Under the pieces are notes generated by a model that was not told the DNA's origin, searched no databases, and saw only the letters and a list, made by a program, of their open reading frames with translations. Both the position numbers and the translations under genes were made by a program. A stretch of 64,000 nucleotides of DNA from Mesorhizobium sangaii (GTDB lineage: Bacteria; Pseudomonadota; Alphaproteobacteria; Rhizobiales; Rhizobiaceae), in NCBI RefSeq assembly GCF_014207355.1, contig NZ_JACHEF010000008.1:62001-126000 (forward strand), in the 5' to 3' direction. Positions 3,310-12,440 of the stretch are shown here, in pieces (within the stretch, counting starts at the first letter, position 1; every line of letters begins with the position of its first letter).

Positions 3310-3624
3310 CTACTCCACGATGCGGTAGATGTTCCACAGGCTGGTGCCCGACACGACATAAGGCTCGATGTCCTTGCCCCATTTGGCGTGCGCGTCGATC
3401 TTGCCGATCTTGGCGAAGAACGCCTCCAACTGGGCCAGGCTTTCGACCTTGTGGTGGGATTCGATCGTCGCCTCCCGCGCGCCGATCGATCCGGTCATGA
3501 TCTGGAATTCCAGGTCGGCGAGGCCGACCTGCGAGCCGATCTCGCGTTCCCATTTCTTCATCAGTTCGAGCACGGTCTGCTTGTGCCCGAACTTGGCGTC
3601 GATCTGCCATCTGGCGCTGAACAT
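3310..3624 (-). CDS. Small protein of unknown function (possible dimeric alpha/beta-barrel fold)
   Basis: A 104-residue soluble protein with no signal or membrane segment. It starts MFSARWQIDAKFGHKQ, and its strand-helix-strand pattern recalls small dimeric alpha/beta-barrel (ABM or NIPSNAP-like) proteins, but I do not recognise a named family. It is the last gene of a minus-strand group: AhpD-like protein, NTF2-like protein, then this one, separated by short gaps. A GGAGGAGAA ribosome binding site precedes the ATG. The group sits behind the LuxR-type regulator at 4687-6240, so a role in a stress or small-molecule response is possible but unsupported directly. Confidence 0.65.
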   Translation of the reverse strand: MFSARWQIDAKFGHKQTVLELMKKWEREIGSQVGLADLEFQIMTGSIGAREATIESHHKVESLAQLEAFFAKIGKIDAHAKWGKDIEPYVVSGTSLWNIYRIVE

Positions 3625-3651
3625 TGTCTTCTCCTCCAGGTTTGCGGTGAC

Positions 3652-4014
3652 CTATTCGTCCCACGCCTGCACCACGGTCTGCCGTGCGATCCGTCCGTTC
3701 TTCATCTCCAGCATCGCTGCCGCGAACACTTTCGTGCCGTCCGGGTAGGTGCAGGCCTGGGTGAAGGCGAGGCTGTCGCCATCGGCGATCGTGGTATCGA
3801 CCTTGTGGGTCATCGCCCGGCTGCAGATGTCGTCCCAGAACGTGCTGATCGCGGCGCGCCCGCGGATTTCGCGCGGCTTGCTCGGCGGGTTGTTGCGGTC
3901 GATCACCCGCACCAGCGCATCGTCCGAATAGAAGCTCGACAGCATCTTTCCATCACGGCCTTCGATCGCCTTCTTGATCGCCGCGCCGTCTACGGTCTGT
4001 GTCTTGGTCAGCAT
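3652..4014 (-). CDS. NTF2/SnoaL-like protein
   Basis: A 120-residue cytoplasmic NTF2-like protein (SnoaL/DUF4440 type), with KKAIEGRDGKMLSSFYSDDA near the start and a C-terminal MKNGRIARQTVVQAWDE. The ATG at 4014 is chosen because GGAGG lies six bases upstream. An in-frame ATG four codons earlier overlaps that ribosome binding site, and the longer open frame further upstream is low-complexity Arg/Gln-rich sequence not expected in a real gene. It follows the AhpD-like gene by 83 bases and precedes the small unknown protein by 27. Function is unknown; the fold suggests binding of a small hydrophobic ligand. Confidence 0.75.
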   Translation of the reverse strand: MLTKTQTVDGAAIKKAIEGRDGKMLSSFYSDDALVRVIDRNNPPSKPREIRGRAAISTFWDDICSRAMTHKVDTTIADGDSLAFTQACTYPDGTKVFAAAMLEMKNGRIARQTVVQAWDE

Positions 4015-4097
4015 TTTATCCTCCATATGCCCGTCTTCGCGATCGGGCGGTCGATGATCATGATGCTGCCGGGCGCTCATCGCCGGGCAGGATTTCT

Positions 4098-4577
4098 TCA
4101 CTGTGACTTGGCCTTGACGGCTGCGAATACGGCGTCGGTCTGCTTCTTGAAGGTCGCGAGGTCGACCTGGCTGCCATTGAGCATTGTCGACCAGTGGCGC
4201 ACGATCGCCGCCATCGCCACCGCCTCTTTGATCTCCTCGTCGCTGGCGCCGTTGAGCTTGGCCGCCTCCGTATGGAAATAGATGCAGTATTGGCATGGGA
4301 TCTGCGCCGCGACGGCGAGCCCCAACAGTTCCTTGGTCTTGCCGTCGAGCGCGGTCTTCGGGTTGAGCTGCACGCCCTTGATCTCGGCCCAGGCGCCGGC
4401 GACGGCCACATCAGGCAGCGTCTTGAACATGTCCGGGACCGAGCCGAGCGTCGCCTGGATATCCTTGTAGGCGGCTGTCGCAGACGCGTCCTCGGCCTTT
4501 GCGGGAGCGATGGCGAACAACGCTCCAACACCTGCCGCAATCACCAGCGATCCGAGTGTCCGGTTTGACTTCAGCAT
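4098..4577 (-). CDS. Exported carboxymuconolactone decarboxylase/AhpD-family protein
   Basis: A 159-residue protein with a Sec signal (hydrophobic stretch LGSLVIAAGVGALFAIA, cleavage after AKA) followed by a CMD/AhpD domain. The redox motif CxxCxxxH is present as PCQYCIYFH near residue 95-102. AhpD-like proteins with this motif act as thiol peroxidases or reductase adaptors. A periplasmic location is less usual than the common cytoplasmic AhpD. It heads a three-gene minus-strand group, with the LuxR-type regulator gene ending 109 bases upstream. An AGGGAGGA ribosome binding site precedes the ATG. Confidence 0.82.
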   Translation of the reverse strand: MLKSNRTLGSLVIAAGVGALFAIAPAKAEDASATAAYKDIQATLGSVPDMFKTLPDVAVAGAWAEIKGVQLNPKTALDGKTKELLGLAVAAQIPCQYCIYFHTEAAKLNGASDEEIKEAVAMAAIVRHWSTMLNGSQVDLATFKKQTDAVFAAVKAKSQ

Positions 4578-4686
4578 TTGATCCTCCCTTGGCAGGCCTT
4601 TCCCGGCGACATCCGCCTGGCCCGCATGGAGAGAATTGATAGCGCCTGCAGGCCTCGTGCCGCTTCGCCCGAAAGCGCCATGGCTC

Positions 4687-6240
4687 CTATGGCCCGTCCG
4701 GGCCAGTGTGCCTGGCGGAAAATGCCGCTGCCGCTGCCCTCGACGGTAAATCCAGCTTGAGCAGTATGTTGGCGACGTGGCGCTTGACCGTGTGCTCGCT
4801 CAGCCCGAGCTCGGCGGCAATCGCGGCATTGCTCTTGCCATCGGCAATCAGGCTCACAACCTCGCTCTCGCGCGCCGTCAGCGAAGCCGGCTCCGTCGCC
4901 CTGGCCTTGGGACGGCAGGCCGGTTCCAGATGCTGTTCGGACATCGCCAGCACGAGCCCCAGCGGCTCGTCCAGTTCGTCGATGCTGATGCGGCCGGCAT
5001 CGGCGAAATGGAGCCCCGAGCCGGCCGCCAGTTCCGCGACCAGCCGCGATGCCAGGATGTCGCCGCGCCCGGCACGAGCAGCGAGTTGCATCGTCACGCG
5101 AGCTGTCAGCCCTTCCGGCGATCCGCGCAACTCGATCTCGCCGACATGCGCCCCCTGCGCGCTCGCGACGCCGATGTCCTGTGCGGCTTCGCGCAATGCC
5201 GCCGCGCACCGCAAGGCCCGCCCCGGTCCGTCGAAACGTGAAATCATCACCTCGCCATGCGTGTCCACGCAGCGGCCGCCATGGCGTCCGACAAGGGTTC
5301 GCCATGTTTCCTGGAAGCGCTGGCTGCGTTCGCTCCACATGCGGTCGCCGAGCCGCGCCGTGTCATGGATGCGTGTCACCAAAAGCGCCGCCAGCACGCG
5401 CTCCGCTTCCGCCACGGCGCGTGCGCCGGTCAGGAATTCCTCGATCAGGTCAGCCACCCGATCGACATCGCCGGTCCAGATCGGATGGTCGCGCCCGGGG
5501 ATTTCCGCCAGCCGTGCATTCGGGATGGTCTTGGCCAGGAAGCGGCTGGCGTCAGGATCGACCCGCACATCGTTGCGGCGATGGATCAGCAGCGTTGGCG
5601 CGCTGATAGCCGACAGCACGCCGCGCACGTCGATCCCGGCGTTCATCCGCGCCAGCGCCGCCGCTGCGGTCGGGCTTGCCGACAAGCGCTCGAAGCGCGC
5701 CCACCACTGCGTGAAATGCGGGTCGTCGACCCGGCCCGGTGCGAAGCTGGGCAAGGTAGCACCCGTGCCCCATGACGTTTCAGCCGTCTCGATGAAGGCC
5801 TTGAGGCGTTCCGGCGGCATCACCCATTTGTGGAAATGCGCATAGCCGCCATAGAGCGCCAGCGCCCGCGTCCTTTCCGGATAGGTGGCGGCGAACAGCA
5901 TCGCCATGGGCGCTCCTTCCGAGGCGCCAAGCAGTGCCGCGCGGCCGCTGCCGGTCGCGTCCATCACGGCACGCACATCGTCCATGCGCGTTTCGAGGCT
6001 GGGCAGGTGATGCGCGTCGACACGGTCGGACAGACCCGTGCCGCGCTTGTCGAACAGGATCAGCCGCGAGAACGCCGAAAGCCGCTTCAGCAGCCGGCTG
6101 TAGCCTTCGTCTTCCCAGTGAAGGTCGAGATTGGAAATGAAGCCGGGCACGAAGACGAGATCGAACGATCCCTGCCCGACCACCTGATAGGCGATCCGCA
6201 CATCGCCGCTACGGGCATATCGGGTCTCGATCGGCCTCAC
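4687..6240 (-). CDS. Alpha/beta hydrolase - degenerate nucleotide-cyclase-like - LuxR HTH fusion regulator
   Basis: A 517-residue three-domain protein. Residues ~1-275 are an alpha/beta hydrolase with nucleophile elbow GASEG, acid in RRNDVRVD and His in GRDHPIW. Residues ~285-425 align with class III adenylate/guanylate cyclase domains: LGDRMW, the GPGRALRCAAALR helix and GEIELRG are recognisable. However, the two metal-binding Asp positions are changed: the TDIVGST-like strand reads TRIHDTA, and GDG reads GEV. Residues ~445-505 are a LuxR/GerE helix-turn-helix (SLTARESEVVSLIADGKSN). A GTG start is used. The likely role is a ligand-sensing transcription regulator, perhaps of the downstream AhpD/NTF2 group. 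Loss of cyclase chemistry is inferred. Confidence 0.85.
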   Translation of the reverse strand: MRPIETRYARSGDVRIAYQVVGQGSFDLVFVPGFISNLDLHWEDEGYSRLLKRLSAFSRLILFDKRGTGLSDRVDAHHLPSLETRMDDVRAVMDATGSGRAALLGASEGAPMAMLFAATYPERTRALALYGGYAHFHKWVMPPERLKAFIETAETSWGTGATLPSFAPGRVDDPHFTQWWARFERLSASPTAAAALARMNAGIDVRGVLSAISAPTLLIHRRNDVRVDPDASRFLAKTIPNARLAEIPGRDHPIWTGDVDRVADLIEEFLTGARAVAEAERVLAALLVTRIHDTARLGDRMWSERSQRFQETWRTLVGRHGGRCVDTHGEVMISRFDGPGRALRCAAALREAAQDIGVASAQGAHVGEIELRGSPEGLTARVTMQLAARAGRGDILASRLVAELAAGSGLHFADAGRISIDELDEPLGLVLAMSEQHLEPACRPKARATEPASLTARESEVVSLIADGKSNAAIAAELGLSEHTVKRHVANILLKLDLPSRAAAAAFSARHTGPDGP

Positions 6241-6350: not shown

Positions 6351-6662
6351 CTATTTTTGCGAGGCGGCGACGTCGGCCGGGGAGGCCTCGAGCCCGAGTC
6401 GGAGGTCGGCCTCGGCCGGCGTGATCGGTCGCCTGATCTTGGCCGAGGCGGCGACCACCAACTCGTTGAAATTCTCGGTGTCGCCATCCAGCAAATCGAA
6501 CAGCTGCCGACGCATCCTCGGCTCCCAGAACTTGTTGATATGCTCGGCGACGCCGGCAATGCCTTCCTCGCGCGGCTTGGAATGGAAAAAATCGGCGATC
6601 TGGTTTGCCATGCGCACCAGCTTCTCGCTGGTGCTCATGATGTGTTCTTCGTCATGCGACAT
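6351..6662 (-). CDS. fdsD: NAD-dependent formate dehydrogenase delta subunit
   Basis: A 103-residue small subunit or assembly protein of the Fds formate dehydrogenase. Recognisable features are EKLVRMANQIADFF and the HINKFWEPRMR segment that is typical of FdsD. The start at 6662 (MSHDEEH) overlaps the fdhD stop by 11 bases, which fits the coupled operon; MSTSEK eight codons later is an alternative start. FdsD is needed for correct cofactor insertion or stability of the alpha subunit in related systems. It is the last gene of the fdsGBA-fdhD-fdsD operon. Confidence 0.9.
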   Translation of the reverse strand: MSHDEEHIMSTSEKLVRMANQIADFFHSKPREEGIAGVAEHINKFWEPRMRRQLFDLLDGDTENFNELVVAASAKIRRPITPAEADLRLGLEASPADVAASQK

Positions 6663-7482
6663 GCTTGGCAACTCCGCAAACCACCCGGTCGGGGTGGGTG
6701 AAAATATCGAAATCATCGCCGCGAACCAGCGCAACGAGGGTCATCCCGGCGGCCTCCGCAGTGCGGATGGCGAGCGCGGTCGGCGCCGAAACGGCGATGA
6801 TGATGGCGGCGCCGATAGCTGCCGTCTTCTGCACCATTTCCACCGAAACGCGCGATGTCACCACGACAGCACCCGTCGAGCCGTCGATGCCGGCTTTCGC
6901 CAACGCGCCTGCGAGTTTGTCGAGCGCATTGTGGCGGCCGACGTCCTCGCGCGCCATGACGACGCCCTTGCCCGGCATATAGAAGCCGGCGGCGTGCACG
7001 GCTCCGGTCTCGGTGTGCAGTGGCTGCACTTTCGACAAAAGCTTGACCGAGCCGACGATATCGTCGGCATCCAATGTAAGCGTCGACGAACCGACCGCGT
7101 CAACCGAACGCATCGCTTCCTCGATCGATTCGATGCCGCACAATCCGCAACCGACCGGTCCTGCCAACCGTCTGCGCCGCGCTTCGAAGCGCGTATTGGC
7201 GCTGTCCTTCAACCGGATCTGGATATCGATACCGGCGCCATGATCCTCGACCTCGATGGCGTCGATCTCGTCAGGCTTGGCGATGATGCCTTCGGTCAGC
7301 GAGAAGCCGAGCGCGAAATCCTCGAAATCGGCCGGGCTTGCCATCATCACCGCATGGGTGGTGCCGGCAAAGGAGAACGCCACCGGCGTCTCTTCCGGCA
7401 CCATCCGGTTGGCAGCCGTCGTCCCGCTCGCGCGACGCGCCAGCCGCGATACCTGCGTCGTGGCTTGGCGGCGCTCGCTCAA
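6652..7482 (-). CDS. fdhD: FdhD sulfurtransferase for formate dehydrogenase
   Basis: A 276-residue cytoplasmic FdhD. It carries sulfur from IscS to the bis-MGD molybdenum cofactor, which formate dehydrogenase needs for activity. The conserved Cys pair is present as GCGLCGIES. The C-terminal region MAREDVGRHNALDKL is the usual FdhD cofactor-binding signature. The start is a TTG at 7482 with GGAG five bases before it, and that ribosome binding site lies over the fdsA stop codon (fdsA ends at 7485). It is coupled to fdsA upstream and fdsD downstream. Confidence 0.95.
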   Translation of the reverse strand: MSERRQATTQVSRLARRASGTTAANRMVPEETPVAFSFAGTTHAVMMASPADFEDFALGFSLTEGIIAKPDEIDAIEVEDHGAGIDIQIRLKDSANTRFEARRRRLAGPVGCGLCGIESIEEAMRSVDAVGSSTLTLDADDIVGSVKLLSKVQPLHTETGAVHAAGFYMPGKGVVMAREDVGRHNALDKLAGALAKAGIDGSTGAVVVTSRVSVEMVQKTAAIGAAIIIAVSAPTALAIRTAEAAGMTLVALVRGDDFDIFTHPDRVVCGVAKHVA

Positions 7483-7484
7483 GA

Positions 7485-10397
7485 CTACTCCGCCGCTTCC
7501 AATTTCGCGATGCGCCGGCTCTGCTTGGCCTGCTCGTCATAATCGCGCTGCCATTCCGACGGGCCGTTCGAGGCGCCGACCTGCACCGCCGTCACCTTGT
7601 ATTCCGGACAATTGGTCGCCCAATCGGAGAAGTCGGTCGTGATGACGTTGGCCTGCGTGTCCGGATGATGGAACGTCGTATAAACCACGCCGGGCGACAC
7701 ACGGTCGGTGATCAGCGCACGCAACGTCGTCTCGCCCGAGCGGCTGGTCAGCCGGACCCAGTCGCCGTCGCGCAATCCGCGATTCTCCGCATCGTGCGGG
7801 TGGATCTCCAGCCGGTCCTCGCTGTGCCACACGACGTTGTCGGTGCGCCTGGTCTGCGCGCCGACATTGTACTGCGACAGGATGCGGCCGGTGGTCAGCA
7901 GCAGCGGGAAGCGCGGGCCGGTCCTTTCGTCCGTCGCCACATATTCGGTGCGGATGAACTTGCCCTTGCCGCGCACGAAACCATCGACATGCATGATCGG
8001 GGTGCCGAGCGGTGCCTTCTCGTTGCAGGGCCATTGCACGGATCCGACACGGTCGAGCAATTCGAAGGAGACGCCGGCGAAGCTCGGCGTCGTCTGGGCG
8101 ATCTCGTCCATGATCTCGGAGGGATGCTGGTAGTTCCAATCCAGCCCGATCGCGCGGGCAAGCTCCTGCGTCGCTTCCCAATCGGCGTAGCGCGCCTTCG
8201 GCTTCAGAACCTTGCGCACCATGTTGATGCGGCGCTCGGCATTGGTGAACGTGCCGTCCTTCTCGAGGAAGGTCGAGCCGGGCAGGAAGACATGCGCGTA
8301 GTTTGCAGTCTCGTTGAGGAAGAGGTCATGCACGACGACGCATTCCATGGCAGCCAGACCGGCAGCGACATGCTTGGTGTCGGGATCGGACTGCAGAATG
8401 TCCTCGCCCTGGATGTAGATGCCCTTGAAAGTGCCGTCGACGGCGGCATCCAGCATGTTGGGGATGCGCAGGCCGGGCTCGTCGTCCAGCTTCACCCCCC
8501 ACAGGCTCTCATAGATGTCGCGCACGGCTTCGCCGGAGATATGACGGTAGCCGGGCAGTTCGTGCGGGAACGAACCCATGTCGCAGGAGCCCTGCACATT
8601 GTTCTGGCCGCGCAGCGGATTCACGCCGACGCCTGGCCGGCCGATATTGCCGGTGGCCATGGCGAGGTTGGCGATCGCCATCACCGTGGTTGAACCCTGG
8701 CTGTGTTCCGTCACCCCGAGGCCGTAATAGATCGCGCCGTTGCCGCCGGTTGCGTAGAGACGCGCCGCGCCGCGGATCAACTCCGGATCGACGCCCGACA
8801 ACTTGCCGACGGTTTCGGGGCTGTTTTCCGGCAAGGCGACGAACGAGGCCCAGTCCTGGAACTCCGCCCAGTCGCAGCGTTCGCGGATGAAGGCTTCGTT
8901 GAAAAGACCTTCGGTGACGATCACATGCGCCAGCGCCGTCAGCACAGCCACATTGGTGCCGGGCTTCAGCGGCAGGTGATAATCCGCCTCAACATGTGTC
9001 GACTTGACCATCTCGGTGCGACGGGGATCGAGCACGATCAACTTGGCGCCCTGACGCAGCCGCTTCTTCAGCCGCGAGGCGAACACCGGATGGGCTGAAA
9101 CCGGATTGGCACCGATAATGACGGCAACATCAGTGTAATCGACGGAGTCGAAATCCTGTGTGCCGGCCGAGGTGCCATAGGTCTGGCCGAGCCCGTAGCC
9201 CGTCGGCGAATGGCAGACGCGCGCGCAGGTGTCGACATTGTTGTTGCGGAACCCCTGCCGCACCATCTTCTGGACGAGGTAGGTTTCCTCGTTGGTGCAG
9301 CGCGACGAGGTGATGCCGCCAATCGCGGTGCGGCCGTACTGATACTGGATACGGCGGAATTCCTTGGCCGTGTGGGCGATAGCCTCTTCCCAGGTCACCT
9401 CGCGCCATGGGTCGGTGATCTTTTCGCGGATCATCGGCGACAAGATGCGGTCCTTGTGGGTGGCGTAGCCATAGGCAAAACGGCCCTTCACGCAGGAATG
9501 ACCGTGGTTCGCCTTGCCCTCTTTGTAGGGCATCATGCGAATGACCTCGTCATCCTTCGCTTCGGCCTTGAACGAGCAGCCAACGCCGCAATAGGCGCAG
9601 GTGGTGACGACCGAGCGCTCCGGCAGGCCTTTTGCAAGGACTGTTTTTTCGCGCAGCGCATCGGTCGGGCAGGCCTGCACGCAGGCGCCGCAGGACACGC
9701 ATTCCGAATCGATGAACGCCTCGTGCATTCCCGCCGAAACCCTGGATTCGAAACCACGCCCTTCGATAGTCAGCGCGAAGGTGCCCTGCACCTCTTCACA
9801 GGCCCTCACGCAGCGCGAACAGACGATGCATTGCGTGGGATCATAGGTGAAATAAGGGTTGGTTTCGTCGCGGGCGATGTAATCGACCGTCAGCGAGCCG
9901 TGGCCGGGCGCCACGCCGTTTTCCTGCTTGACGTGGTTACGGCCCTCGATGCCGTAGCGGTTCTCGGTCAAGCCGATCGACTTCGCCACCGTGTCGAACT
10001 CGCTGGCGCCGGTTCCGGCCGTCTCGTTCCAGCCGGTCGGATGGTCGGAAACGTAAAGCTCCATGACGCCGCGGCGAATGGCGTCAAGTCGCCCGGACTG
10101 CGTATGCACCACCATGCCTTCGCCGACAGGTGTCGTGCAGGACGCTGGCGTGCCGCCGCGCCCTTCGATCTCGACAAGGCAGACACGACATGAACCGAAG
10201 GAGTCCAGCATGTCGGTGGCGCAAAGCTTCGGGATCTCAACCCCGCCTTCCATCGCCGCACGCATGATCGAGGTGCCTTCCGGCACGGTGATGCTGCGGC
10301 CGTCGACGCTCAGCGTGACCTGCTTGTGCGCCGCCGATTGCGGAGTCCCGTAGTCGATCTCTTCGACGAGTGATGGGAAGTCGGCCTTGATGTTCAT
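7485..10397 (-). CDS. fdsA: NAD-dependent formate dehydrogenase, molybdenum alpha subunit
   Basis: A 970-residue catalytic subunit oxidising formate to CO2 at a bis-MGD molybdenum site. Order: N-terminal [2Fe-2S] domain (CATDML, GSCRVC, ASCTTP, ~residues 58-90), a NuoG-like region, two [4Fe-4S] motifs (CIVCSRCVRACEE and CVSCGACVQACPT), a further [4Fe-4S] site (CAYCGVGC), then the molybdopterin domains. The Mo-ligand Cys and its His are in ARVCHSPT. Oddly, the His-Cys3 cluster motif HxxxCxxCxxxxxC keeps its His, but the Cys positions read W, T and S (HPTGWNETAGTGAS). The frame is continuous there. The gene lies ten bases after fdsB. Confidence 0.95.
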   Translation of the reverse strand: MNIKADFPSLVEEIDYGTPQSAAHKQVTLSVDGRSITVPEGTSIMRAAMEGGVEIPKLCATDMLDSFGSCRVCLVEIEGRGGTPASCTTPVGEGMVVHTQSGRLDAIRRGVMELYVSDHPTGWNETAGTGASEFDTVAKSIGLTENRYGIEGRNHVKQENGVAPGHGSLTVDYIARDETNPYFTYDPTQCIVCSRCVRACEEVQGTFALTIEGRGFESRVSAGMHEAFIDSECVSCGACVQACPTDALREKTVLAKGLPERSVVTTCAYCGVGCSFKAEAKDDEVIRMMPYKEGKANHGHSCVKGRFAYGYATHKDRILSPMIREKITDPWREVTWEEAIAHTAKEFRRIQYQYGRTAIGGITSSRCTNEETYLVQKMVRQGFRNNNVDTCARVCHSPTGYGLGQTYGTSAGTQDFDSVDYTDVAVIIGANPVSAHPVFASRLKKRLRQGAKLIVLDPRRTEMVKSTHVEADYHLPLKPGTNVAVLTALAHVIVTEGLFNEAFIRERCDWAEFQDWASFVALPENSPETVGKLSGVDPELIRGAARLYATGGNGAIYYGLGVTEHSQGSTTVMAIANLAMATGNIGRPGVGVNPLRGQNNVQGSCDMGSFPHELPGYRHISGEAVRDIYESLWGVKLDDEPGLRIPNMLDAAVDGTFKGIYIQGEDILQSDPDTKHVAAGLAAMECVVVHDLFLNETANYAHVFLPGSTFLEKDGTFTNAERRINMVRKVLKPKARYADWEATQELARAIGLDWNYQHPSEIMDEIAQTTPSFAGVSFELLDRVGSVQWPCNEKAPLGTPIMHVDGFVRGKGKFIRTEYVATDERTGPRFPLLLTTGRILSQYNVGAQTRRTDNVVWHSEDRLEIHPHDAENRGLRDGDWVRLTSRSGETTLRALITDRVSPGVVYTTFHHPDTQANVITTDFSDWATNCPEYKVTAVQVGASNGPSEWQRDYDEQAKQSRRIAKLEAAE

Positions 10398-10407
10398 CTG
10401 CCAGCTC

Positions 10408-11964
10408 CTATTCAGCAGCCACGCGCACTGGCGCAGGCTTGAAGTCGTCGGGGAAATGGGTGATCGAGCTCATAACCGGGTAAGGCGTGAAGCCGCCCAG
10501 CGCACAGAGCGAGCCGAATTTCATCGTGTTGCAGAGGTCGGCGACCAGAGCGAGGTTCTTCTCCGGCTCGATGCCAGCGGCAAGCTTGTCGATGGTCTCG
10601 ACACCGCGCGTCGAGCCGATGCGGCAGGGCGTGCACTTGCCGCAACTTTCGATGGCGCAGAACTCCATGGCGAAGCGTGCCTGTTTCAACATGTCGGCAG
10701 TGTCGTCGAACACCACGATGCCGGCATGGCCGATCAGCCCGTCCTTGGCCGCGAAGGCTTCATAGTCGAACGGCGTGTCGAATAGCGCGCGCGGGAAATA
10801 GGCGCCGAGCGGTCCGCCGACCTGCACCGCCTTGACCGGACGCCCCGTCGCCGTGCCGCCGCCGATGTCGTCGACGATCTCGCCCAGCGTCATGCCGAAG
10901 GCCGCTTCGAACAGGCCGCCATACCTGATGTTGCCGGCGATCTGGATCGGGATCGTGCCGCGCGAGCGGCCCATGCCGAAATCCTTGTAGAAGGCCGCAC
11001 CCTTGTCCATGATGATTGGCACCGAGGCCAGCGAGATGACGTTGTTGATCACCGTCGGCTTGCCGAACAGCCCCTTGTGCGCCGGCAGCGGCGGCTTTGC
11101 CCGTACCATGCCGCGCTTGCCTTCAAGCGAGTCAAGCAGCGCCGTCTCCTCGCCGCAGACATAGGCGCCTGCTCCGACCCTGATCTCCATGTCGAAAGCG
11201 TAGGGTGAACCCAGCACGCTGGCGCCAAGCACACCGGCCTTGCGGGCAACCTCGACGGCTTTGTTCATCATCGCCACCGCATGCGGATATTCCGAGCGGA
11301 CATAGACGAAGCCTTTGGTCGCACCCGTTGCGATCCCCGCAATCGTCATGCCTTCGATCAGCACGAAGGGGTCACCCTCCATGATCATGCGGTCGGCAAA
11401 GGTGCCCGAGTCGCCTTCGTCGGCGTTGCAGACGATGTATTTGCGGTCGCCAGCGGTATCGAGCACCGTCTTCCATTTGATGCCGGTCGGGAAGCCCGCG
11501 CCACCGCGCCCGCGCAGCCCGGATTCGGTGACTTGGGCGACAATGGCGGCGGGCGTCAATCCCAACGCGTTCGTCAGCCCATTCAAACCGCCATGCTTCT
11601 TGTAGGATTCGAGTGACAGCGGATCGATGACGCCGCAACGCGCGAAGGTCAGCCGCGTCTGCTTTGCCAGGAAGGGGATTTTGTCCGGGGCGCCCAGCCA
11701 GCGCTTGTGGTGGCCGCCGGTGAGGAAGCCGCTTTCGAACAGGCTCTTGACGTCGGATGGCTTGACCGGCCCATAGGCAACGCGGCCGTTGGCGGTCGCA
11801 ACTTCGACCATCGGTTCGAGGAAATAAGCGCCGCGCGAACCGTTGCGCACGATCTTGGCCTCGATGCCGCGCTCTGCCAGTTCACTGGCGATCGCCTTGG
11901 CGACCTTTTCGGCGCCAAGCGCCAGTGCCCCGGAATCGGCGGGAATGTAGATACGCGGGATCAT
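10408..11964 (-). CDS. fdsB: NAD-dependent formate dehydrogenase beta (NuoF-like) subunit
   Basis: A 518-residue diaphorase subunit, homologous to NuoF, that passes electrons from the alpha subunit to NAD+. It has an N-terminal thioredoxin-like ferredoxin segment (~100 residues), the glycine-rich NADH/FMN motif GRGGAGFPTGIKW (about residue 150), NADEGDSGTFADR, the FMN-contacting GAGAYVCGEETAL, and a C-terminal [4Fe-4S] motif SCGKCTPCRIG. Its ATG overlaps the fdsG stop (ATGA). The whole enzyme is soluble and cytoplasmic in characterised relatives such as Rhodobacter capsulatus. Confidence 0.95.
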   Translation of the reverse strand: MIPRIYIPADSGALALGAEKVAKAIASELAERGIEAKIVRNGSRGAYFLEPMVEVATANGRVAYGPVKPSDVKSLFESGFLTGGHHKRWLGAPDKIPFLAKQTRLTFARCGVIDPLSLESYKKHGGLNGLTNALGLTPAAIVAQVTESGLRGRGGAGFPTGIKWKTVLDTAGDRKYIVCNADEGDSGTFADRMIMEGDPFVLIEGMTIAGIATGATKGFVYVRSEYPHAVAMMNKAVEVARKAGVLGASVLGSPYAFDMEIRVGAGAYVCGEETALLDSLEGKRGMVRAKPPLPAHKGLFGKPTVINNVISLASVPIIMDKGAAFYKDFGMGRSRGTIPIQIAGNIRYGGLFEAAFGMTLGEIVDDIGGGTATGRPVKAVQVGGPLGAYFPRALFDTPFDYEAFAAKDGLIGHAGIVVFDDTADMLKQARFAMEFCAIESCGKCTPCRIGSTRGVETIDKLAAGIEPEKNLALVADLCNTMKFGSLCALGGFTPYPVMSSITHFPDDFKPAPVRVAAE

Positions 11965-12440
11965 GAGCGCACCTCGGCAACGATCTCGTCGAGCTTTTCG
12001 TCATCGAGCCGCCCAATCACTTCGCCATCGAGCATGGCGGCGGGCGAACAGGCGCACAGGCCGAGACAATAGACCGGCTCCAGCGTCACCGAACCGTCGC
12101 GGGTCGTCTCGTGGAAGCCGATGCCCAGCAATTGCTTCAGTTTGGCGGCGATGGCGTCGGAACCCATCGACTGGCACGATTCTGCCTGGCAGAGCTTCAG
12201 CACATGCCGGCCGGCCGGATGGCGGCGGTAATCGTGATAAAAGGTGACGACGCCGTGCACCTCGGCCCTGGAGATGTTCAGCGCTTCGGCGATGACCGGC
12301 AGCGCATCCTGCGGCACATGGCCGAACTCTTCCTGGATTCCGTGCAGGATCGGCAGCAACGGCCCTTCGAGGCCTTTCAACTCCTGGATGATCGCGGTCG
12401 TGCGCGATGTGATCTCGGTACTTGCAGGCTGCATTGGCAT
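11961..12440 (-). CDS. fdsG: NAD-dependent formate dehydrogenase gamma (NuoE-like) subunit
   Basis: A 159-residue [2Fe-2S] thioredoxin-like subunit, homologous to NuoE. The cluster ligands are seen as CQAESC and CLGLC (C-x4-C and C-x3-C). It is the first gene of the fds operon, giving the order fdsG-fdsB-fdsA-fdhD-fdsD. An AGGGAGGG ribosome binding site precedes the ATG. The 134-base upstream gap holds a perfect palindrome likely bound by the LysR regulator encoded just upstream on the same strand. Confidence 0.93.
   Translation of the reverse strand: MPMQPASTEITSRTTAIIQELKGLEGPLLPILHGIQEEFGHVPQDALPVIAEALNISRAEVHGVVTFYHDYRRHPAGRHVLKLCQAESCQSMGSDAIAAKLKQLLGIGFHETTRDGSVTLEPVYCLGLCACSPAAMLDGEVIGRLDDEKLDEIVAEVRS

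Follow-up and report, generated by a model that had tools for sequence, protein, structure and literature searches.

A probable LuxR-type transcription factor of Mesorhizobium sangaii that joins an alpha/beta hydrolase to a degenerate class III cyclase domain, with its companion gene cassette and a candidate operator

What role could a nucleotide cyclase fold with altered catalytic residues play inside a transcription factor? The question is raised by one gene in a stretch of 64,000 nucleotides of Mesorhizobium sangaii DNA (the window), which an initial annotation had read as a hydrolase, a dead cyclase and a LuxR-type helix-turn-helix (HTH) in a single polypeptide. The open reading frame runs on the minus strand from 6240 to 4687 (4687..6240), has GTG as its listed start codon and encodes 517 amino acids; its three-part architecture was assigned from the list of open reading frames, Pfam and a match of the sequence to a solved structure. 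An alpha/beta hydrolase domain (residues 5-271; 5428..6228, minus strand), detected by Pfam, NCBIfam and structure search, is followed by a degenerate class III cyclase domain (residues 280-420; 4981..5403, minus strand), detected by its match to structure 1ybt, by a profile and by a domain model, and then by a GerE/LuxR HTH (residues 453-506; 4723..4884, minus strand), for which the Pfam domain PF00196 scores 62.9 bits, above its gathering score of 23.5. Alignment of LuxR-fused with unfused relatives outlines a linker motif, EQHLEP, ahead of the HTH (residues 435-440; 4921..4938, minus strand); E435, H437, L438, E439 and P440 are invariant in 15 LuxR-fused rows, whereas the same columns are mostly gaps in 18 unfused rows. 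The N-terminus is formed by the hydrolase, and the Pfam result for the regulator, in which weak relatives may be missed, contains no autoinducer-binding domain family. The NCBIfam LipJ equivalog model (NF058673) aligns with residues 5-418 at 269.7 bits, below its cut-off of 800. The closest match bearing an organism name, found in a pattern-based scan of genome contigs, is from M. sophorae at 97% identity.

Comparison with solved structures supports the early assignment of the middle domain to the class III cyclase fold. Pfam PF00211 misses this domain, and the regulator locus is not one of the 29 PF00211 places in the M. sangaii genome. From the single sequence, the domain matches the solved CHD of LipJ/Rv1900c (1ybt) at 2.7e-13, and a profile search of the PDB returns the same structure as best match at 1.1e-16. 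Structure prediction, proposed at the outset as a check, gave models of moderate confidence (mean pLDDT of 67.4 for the full-length protein and 62.6 for the cyclase domain alone). A fold search with the model of the isolated domain ranks class III cyclases first (4wp9, 5d0e, 1ybt, and 1ybu), the top matches being the CHDs of Ma1120 and Rv1900c, and the full-length model finds its fold matches mainly over residues 4-273.

The architecture is no product of chance: full-length orthologues of the regulator are present in 17 of the 24 other genomes of the genus; one more genome carries the gene split over two contigs, another has it cut by a contig end, and five are without it. No full-length three-part match outside the bacterium's own family was among the matches listed in scans of the class (385 genomes) and of the phylum (398 genomes); these scans scored a few candidates per genome and listed the best matches, and rare or diverged cases may be missed. 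Beyond the phylum, the search covered a plasmid collection and the pattern-based scan of genome contigs.

Three genes follow the regulator on the minus strand. The first encodes an AhpD/carboxymuconolactone-decarboxylase-like protein (4098..4577) whose N-terminus looks, by eye, like a signal peptide; the second encodes an NTF2/SnoaL-like protein (3652..4014), both being identified by Pfam and the neighbor survey; and the third encodes a protein of 104 amino acids without a Pfam or NCBIfam match (3310..3624), a usual member of the cassette. The initial annotation had tied the regulator to this gene group (3310-4577), and gene order bears the link out. In a set of 80 loci, two of which (L173 and L174) end inside the regulator, the NTF2/SnoaL gene lies downstream in all 78 that include the regulator's 3' end; 75 of these 78 also have the 104-amino-acid gene, and 69 have the AhpD gene. 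The NTF2/SnoaL gene also follows the regulator in nine of nine divergent loci (L176, L237, L238, and L273-L278), the Shinella yambaruensis locus being counted in both sets. The five genus genomes lacking the regulator yielded no NTF2 protein match, and one genome whose regulator is cut by a contig end (G024) has both genes. Likewise, the NTF2 gene was not found in the stretches surrounding L280, L282 and L283, two of which are unfused relatives and the third a BTAD relative. On two plasmids with unrelated surroundings, from Shinella zoogloeoides and Phyllobacterium zundukense, the regulator and the NTF2/SnoaL gene travel together.

Directly upstream, on the same strand, lie fds-type formate dehydrogenase genes and fdhD (6351-12440), with overlapping fdsD and fdhD reading frames. 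The fds genes are just upstream in most of the Mesorhizobium and Aminobacter loci examined. Formate dehydrogenase was considered as a constant partner and rejected, being not found around the regulator in G006 (L163), Shinella, Phyllobacterium and L273-L278, and lying about 2.5 kb away in G005.

A conserved element of 47 bp (4660..4706, minus strand), recovered by intergenic alignment and model scans, extends across the regulator's stop codon and is a candidate operator. Within the window it reads CTGGCCC-N4-GGGCCAT-N8-TGGCGCTTTCGGGCGAAGCGG, and an alignment of 18 diverse loci is 47 columns wide, with a gap of a single base. In Mesorhizobium and Aminobacter, the regulator's final codons run into the first dyad, whereas this dyad falls after the stop in L176, L237, L238 and L273-L278; because it is inside codons in some loci and beyond the stop in others, the constraint acts on the nucleic acid. 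An overlapping coding frame (WPxRAIxxMALSGEA) was rejected as an explanation, since it contains in-frame stops in 3 of the 18 rows (L273, L238, and L164), it is not in the same register with the regulator gene in Shinella L176 as in L237, and first, second and third codon positions all include invariant columns.

Searched with the 18-row model, 78 of the 80 loci show the element where the regulator gene ends; the exceptions are L173 and L174, which break off within that gene. A scan of 247 genomes of the family, run with stricter filters under which weak matches are lost, found it in all 12 genomes with an intact regulator and elsewhere gave two weak matches only, in genomes without the regulator (G692, 6e-6; G608, 8.6e-4); the model itself included rows from 9 of the 80 loci and from 8 of the 12 genomes. 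The 80 loci include 13 with a second copy, exactly those that carry a FAD-binding gene (PF01565; an oxidase by eye), and this copy lies directly upstream of that gene, for example at 8154-8200 in L100. In an overlapping set of 31 loci, the second copy precedes the FAD gene in 5 of 5 cases (L080, L081, L082, L090, and L092). Loci in which the AhpD gene was not found still have the first element (e.g., L144, L163, and L167). The element thus stands before differing first genes, as would be expected if it served the transcription units of the cassette as operator or leader, and we infer that the LuxR domain may bind it.

Alternatively, the element might be a promoter used by another factor, a processing site or an attenuator acting as RNA, and not an operator of this regulator. 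It sits between transcription units in the coding direction, and its two hairpin-like dyads have 97.1% of cells paired; an alternative hairpin, slid by one column, reaches 87.5%, so that two hairpins may compete. Covariation in the hairpin, however, is no better than in shuffled alignments (130 of 500 as high), a T run was not seen after the element, there is no Rfam match up to an E value of 1, and strong matches occur solely in regulator-bearing genomes, also ahead of a second transcription unit. We consider this alternative somewhat unlikely and prefer the reading of the element as a candidate operator of the regulator.

The hydrolase triad, which had looked intact at first reading, is indeed complete: alignment places the nucleophile at Ser107 (GASEG; 5920..5922), the triad acid at Asp224 (5569..5571) and the triad base at His252 (5485..5487), all on the minus strand, giving the Ser-Asp-His set of alpha/beta hydrolases. 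Across 101 LuxR-fused rows, the nucleophile is Ser in 98 and Ala in 3, the latter representing two genes, L238 on the P. zundukense plasmid and L250 in G731, which share the motif GEADG and keep the triad Asp and His. Since the nucleophile is Ala in these two relatives of the same clade, hydrolysis does not appear essential in every member. The earlier suggestion that the protein may hydrolyze its own ligand accordingly does not extend to the group as a general rule. A further candidate for loss of the nucleophile, L255 in G556 (Ser to Phe, without a LuxR part), was rejected, as the gene ends near a contig end and adjoins a transposase-like HTH frame that we take, by eye, to be IS21-like; it was left out as evidence of nucleophile loss and retained as a row in the trees. 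The same genome holds a relative (L279) that stops before the LuxR part, near a contig end and beside a transposase-like HTH frame. In a structure search, the plant receptor D14 and RsbQ are among the best fold matches of the hydrolase, but generic esterases match equally well, and the parallel with receptors is therefore no more than a lead.

Residue changes in the cyclase domain were read from an alignment in which 157 rows passed a coverage filter. These comprise 101 LuxR-fused rows (distinct, with a few shortened second copies of the same gene among them and four rows that start late), 22 rows with both metal-binding Asp and no added domain, 4 short rows (L032, L170, L185, and L255) that were read as fragments of fused genes and set aside after inspection, 12 rows with a long N-terminus, and 18 without alignable cyclase columns, mostly of reverse domain order. 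The 12 long rows are BTAD, winged-HTH and FlgO/TolB-like fusions, three of them fetched twice and one (L271) low-scoring and poorly aligned. Aligned against its unfused relatives, the M. sangaii regulator has Arg290 (TRI; 5371..5373, minus strand) in place of the first metal-binding Asp (Asp1), Glu330 (GEV; 5251..5253, minus strand) in place of the second (Asp2), and Gln385 (5086..5088, minus strand) in place of the transition-state Arg, and so has neither the two metal-binding Asp nor the transition-state Arg of catalytic class III cyclases. Its residues place a cyclase fold without the catalytic set within a probable transcription factor.

The three positions differ in how uniformly they have changed among the 101 LuxR-fused rows. 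At position 290, 100 rows have Arg and a single row (L120) has His. At position 330, 89 rows have Glu, 10 have Asp and 2 have Gln. Position 385 is Gln in 85, Arg in 9, Lys in 4 and His in 3, the transition-state Arg being lost in 92. The initial claim that both metal-binding Asp are changed therefore stands for Asp1, lost in 101 of 101 rows, and is softened for Asp2, where replacement by Glu is conservative and Asp is kept in 10. Across the aligned rows, the constant change is Asp1 to Arg, with Asp2 conservatively replaced or retained. In the rows used for the divergence comparison, position 290 is Asp in 18 of 18 unfused proteins and Arg in 15 of 15 LuxR fusions, which suggests an altered rather than a missing role for this position. 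Shinella has Arg at the Asp1 position, in an alignment without a deletion there, and keeps Asp2 and the transition-state Arg; the change of Asp1 to Arg was thus probably an early step.

A survey for parallel loss of the two Asp across fusions, also proposed at the outset, found such losses outside the LuxR group. Both Asp are kept in 22 of 22 whole hydrolase-cyclase rows without an added domain and in 0 of the 12 rows with a long N-terminus. The degenerate cyclase domain accompanies the hydrolase and an N-terminal BTAD in L034-L038, L032, L259 and L322 (BTAD being assigned by Pfam for L034 only, and by tree and by eye for the other members), with Glu, Ala or Asp at position 290. It accompanies a winged HTH in L303 and L320, both from genome G1049 (the HTH being recognized by eye in both), and a FlgO/TolB-like N-terminus that looks membrane bound, by eye, in L185 and L186, the FlgO match of L186 falling below the Pfam cut-off. 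In L185/L186, too, Arg stands where Asp1 would be, a likeness to the LuxR fusions that seems to be convergent. DNA-binding fusions of the same hydrolase in which the cyclase domain was not found were seen as well, with a winged HTH (L039), BTAD (L043) or LuxR (L195). In L195, the hydrolase is joined directly to the LuxR HTH, with no Pfam cyclase domain in between.

A 49-row tree placed the LuxR fusions in a single clade (100/100) beside the intact L256 and L301. Separate clades near intact relatives were formed by the BTAD proteins with L322 (100/99), by the winged-HTH pair (100/100), which is sister to the intact unfused L323, and by L185/L186 (100/100). The starred branches of this tree require the "unfused" label to change four times, and those of an earlier 43-row tree without the winged-HTH pair require three changes; both trees are unrooted, and events are counted on sampled rows. 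In the second tree, L320, L322 and L323 carry the label "new," which bears on the label counts (two changes for BTAD, four for unfused), and L262 and L040 were dropped for long branches. The sample hence contains four separate degenerate clades, and every whole unfused row is intact. As L185/L186 is not a DNA-binding fusion, decay accompanies fusion to another part and not only to DNA-binding domains. Collectively, these rows suggest that the cyclase domain decayed repeatedly as the hydrolase-cyclase module joined larger proteins.

Is the decayed domain still under selection? Among 68 close orthologues, the cyclase-like domain has a median dN/dS of 0.155, compared with 0.100 in the hydrolase and 0.065 in the HTH. 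The ratio of cyclase to hydrolase divergence, from which L262, L040, L245 and L259 were dropped, is 0.93 in unfused proteins, 1.50 in LuxR fusions and 3.58 in BTAD fusions. From both measures, constraint on the cyclase-like domain appears weaker, yet a folded domain is retained. The faster divergence could equally reflect the slow decay of an unneeded linker, and the domain might then be no more than a relic that is loosely constrained and links its neighbors passively, with no part in signaling. Its divergence ahead of the neighboring domains is what a relic would show, and a cyclase domain was not found in the fusions L039, L043 and L195. The dN/dS value, however, is well under 1, and core residues including F336, G338, G367 and G377, together with Arg290, are identical in 15 of 15 diverse LuxR-fused rows, which makes the relic unlikely in our judgment and favors a domain kept for its fold.

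Another reading gives the pseudo-cyclase the role of a nucleotide or cyclic-nucleotide sensor, in which Arg290 would touch the phosphates and nucleotide binding would control the HTH. Arg is kept at 290 in 100 of the 101 rows, unlike the residues at the variable positions 330 and 385, it is shared by the separate group L185/L186, and the same idea has been proposed for mycobacterial Mclx2/3 (PMC4452763). A conserved pocket would not be expected to show the variability seen at position 330 and at the transition-state Arg, nor the loop ahead of residue 377 that is shorter by one residue in Mesorhizobium; in the BTAD fusions, position 290 is occupied by Glu, Ala or Asp. We regard a nucleotide sensor as quite improbable. 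Catalysis at a displaced metal site formed by Asp293 and Glu330, or through pairing with another active cyclase, is highly improbable, for although Asp293 is present in 90 of the 101 LuxR-fused rows and Glu can bind metal in principle, two rows (Shinella) have the Asp one place earlier and nine have none at 292 or 293, so that the shifted ligand is no general feature, and the transition-state Arg is gone in 92.

The reading that we prefer, and hold on balance to be probable from these sequence comparisons, is a dedicated one-component regulator in which the hydrolase would sense a small molecule, the pseudo-cyclase would relay its presence and the HTH would act on the 47-bp element. The hydrolase domain may bind an ester-, lactone- or enol-like molecule, in most members perhaps turning it over; this ligand class is a guess from the neighboring genes. 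The cyclase-derived domain, with Arg290 in the place of the first metal ligand, would make no cyclic nucleotide and would be kept as a folded spacer or dimerization part that passes the ligand state to the LuxR HTH. By acting at the element near the 3' end of its own gene, the HTH would control the downstream cassette, that is, the AhpD-like, NTF2/SnoaL-like and 104-amino-acid proteins and, in some strains, the FAD-binding oxidase-like protein. The cassette plausibly handles a reactive aromatic- or polyketide-like compound, and a private ligand tied to the AhpD/NTF2/FAD set is plausible. A bolder version, which we think improbable, would make the protein a portable single-polypeptide receptor-regulator whose hydrolase reads a rhizosphere compound in the manner of D14/KAI2, whose Arg-converted, metal-free cyclase domain senses the nucleotide state, and which has a private operator for each transcription unit. 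If true, the cyclase domain would have been turned repeatedly from an enzyme into a signal relay on joining larger proteins.

The sampled proteins form a natural series from active-looking hydrolase-cyclases to putative signaling proteins of the hydrolase-pseudo-cyclase-HTH type, with four separate degenerate clades and with living intermediates in Shinella, where Asp2 and the transition-state Arg are kept. Given the series and the intermediates, cyclase-domain signaling without catalysis becomes directly testable, and the private candidate operator with its small cassette offers a ready reporter for finding the ligand. In the titles and opening parts of abstracts that we searched, the hydrolase-cyclase-LuxR architecture, the repeated loss and the element are not described.

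Hydrolase-cyclase proteins are known from LipJ. LipJ/Rv1900c (NF058673) and the regulator have the same order of hydrolase then cyclase, and the LipJ CHD is the closest solved structure by profile; the regulator differs in falling under the 800-bit cut-off, in the loss of the metal-binding Asp and in the added LuxR HTH, unlike the sampled LipJ-type relatives, whose whole rows all keep both Asp (22 of 22). D14/KAI2 and RsbQ, which act as receptors or signal proteins, resemble the regulator in their alpha/beta hydrolase fold, as the fold search with the predicted model indicates for D14 and RsbQ, but have about 20% identity to it and no fused HTH or cyclase. As far as the consulted parts of the sources tell, Mclx1-3 (Rv0386, Rv1358, and Rv2488c) likewise carry a LuxR HTH at the C-terminus and have a class III cyclase domain, but their cyclase is N-terminal, an AAA/NB-ARC part lies between in some predictions, and those parts mention no hydrolase; Mclx2/3, described there as without some canonical cyclase residues and as possibly allosterically modulated regulators (PMC4452763), set the precedent in print for a LuxR protein whose cyclase domain is residue-poor (PMC4452763, PMC3466318). 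The BTAD (SARP-type) proteins L034-L038 and the winged-HTH proteins L303 and L320 share the same hydrolase and a degenerate cyclase with the regulator but carry their DNA-binding part at the N-terminus and belong to clades separate from the LuxR fusions.
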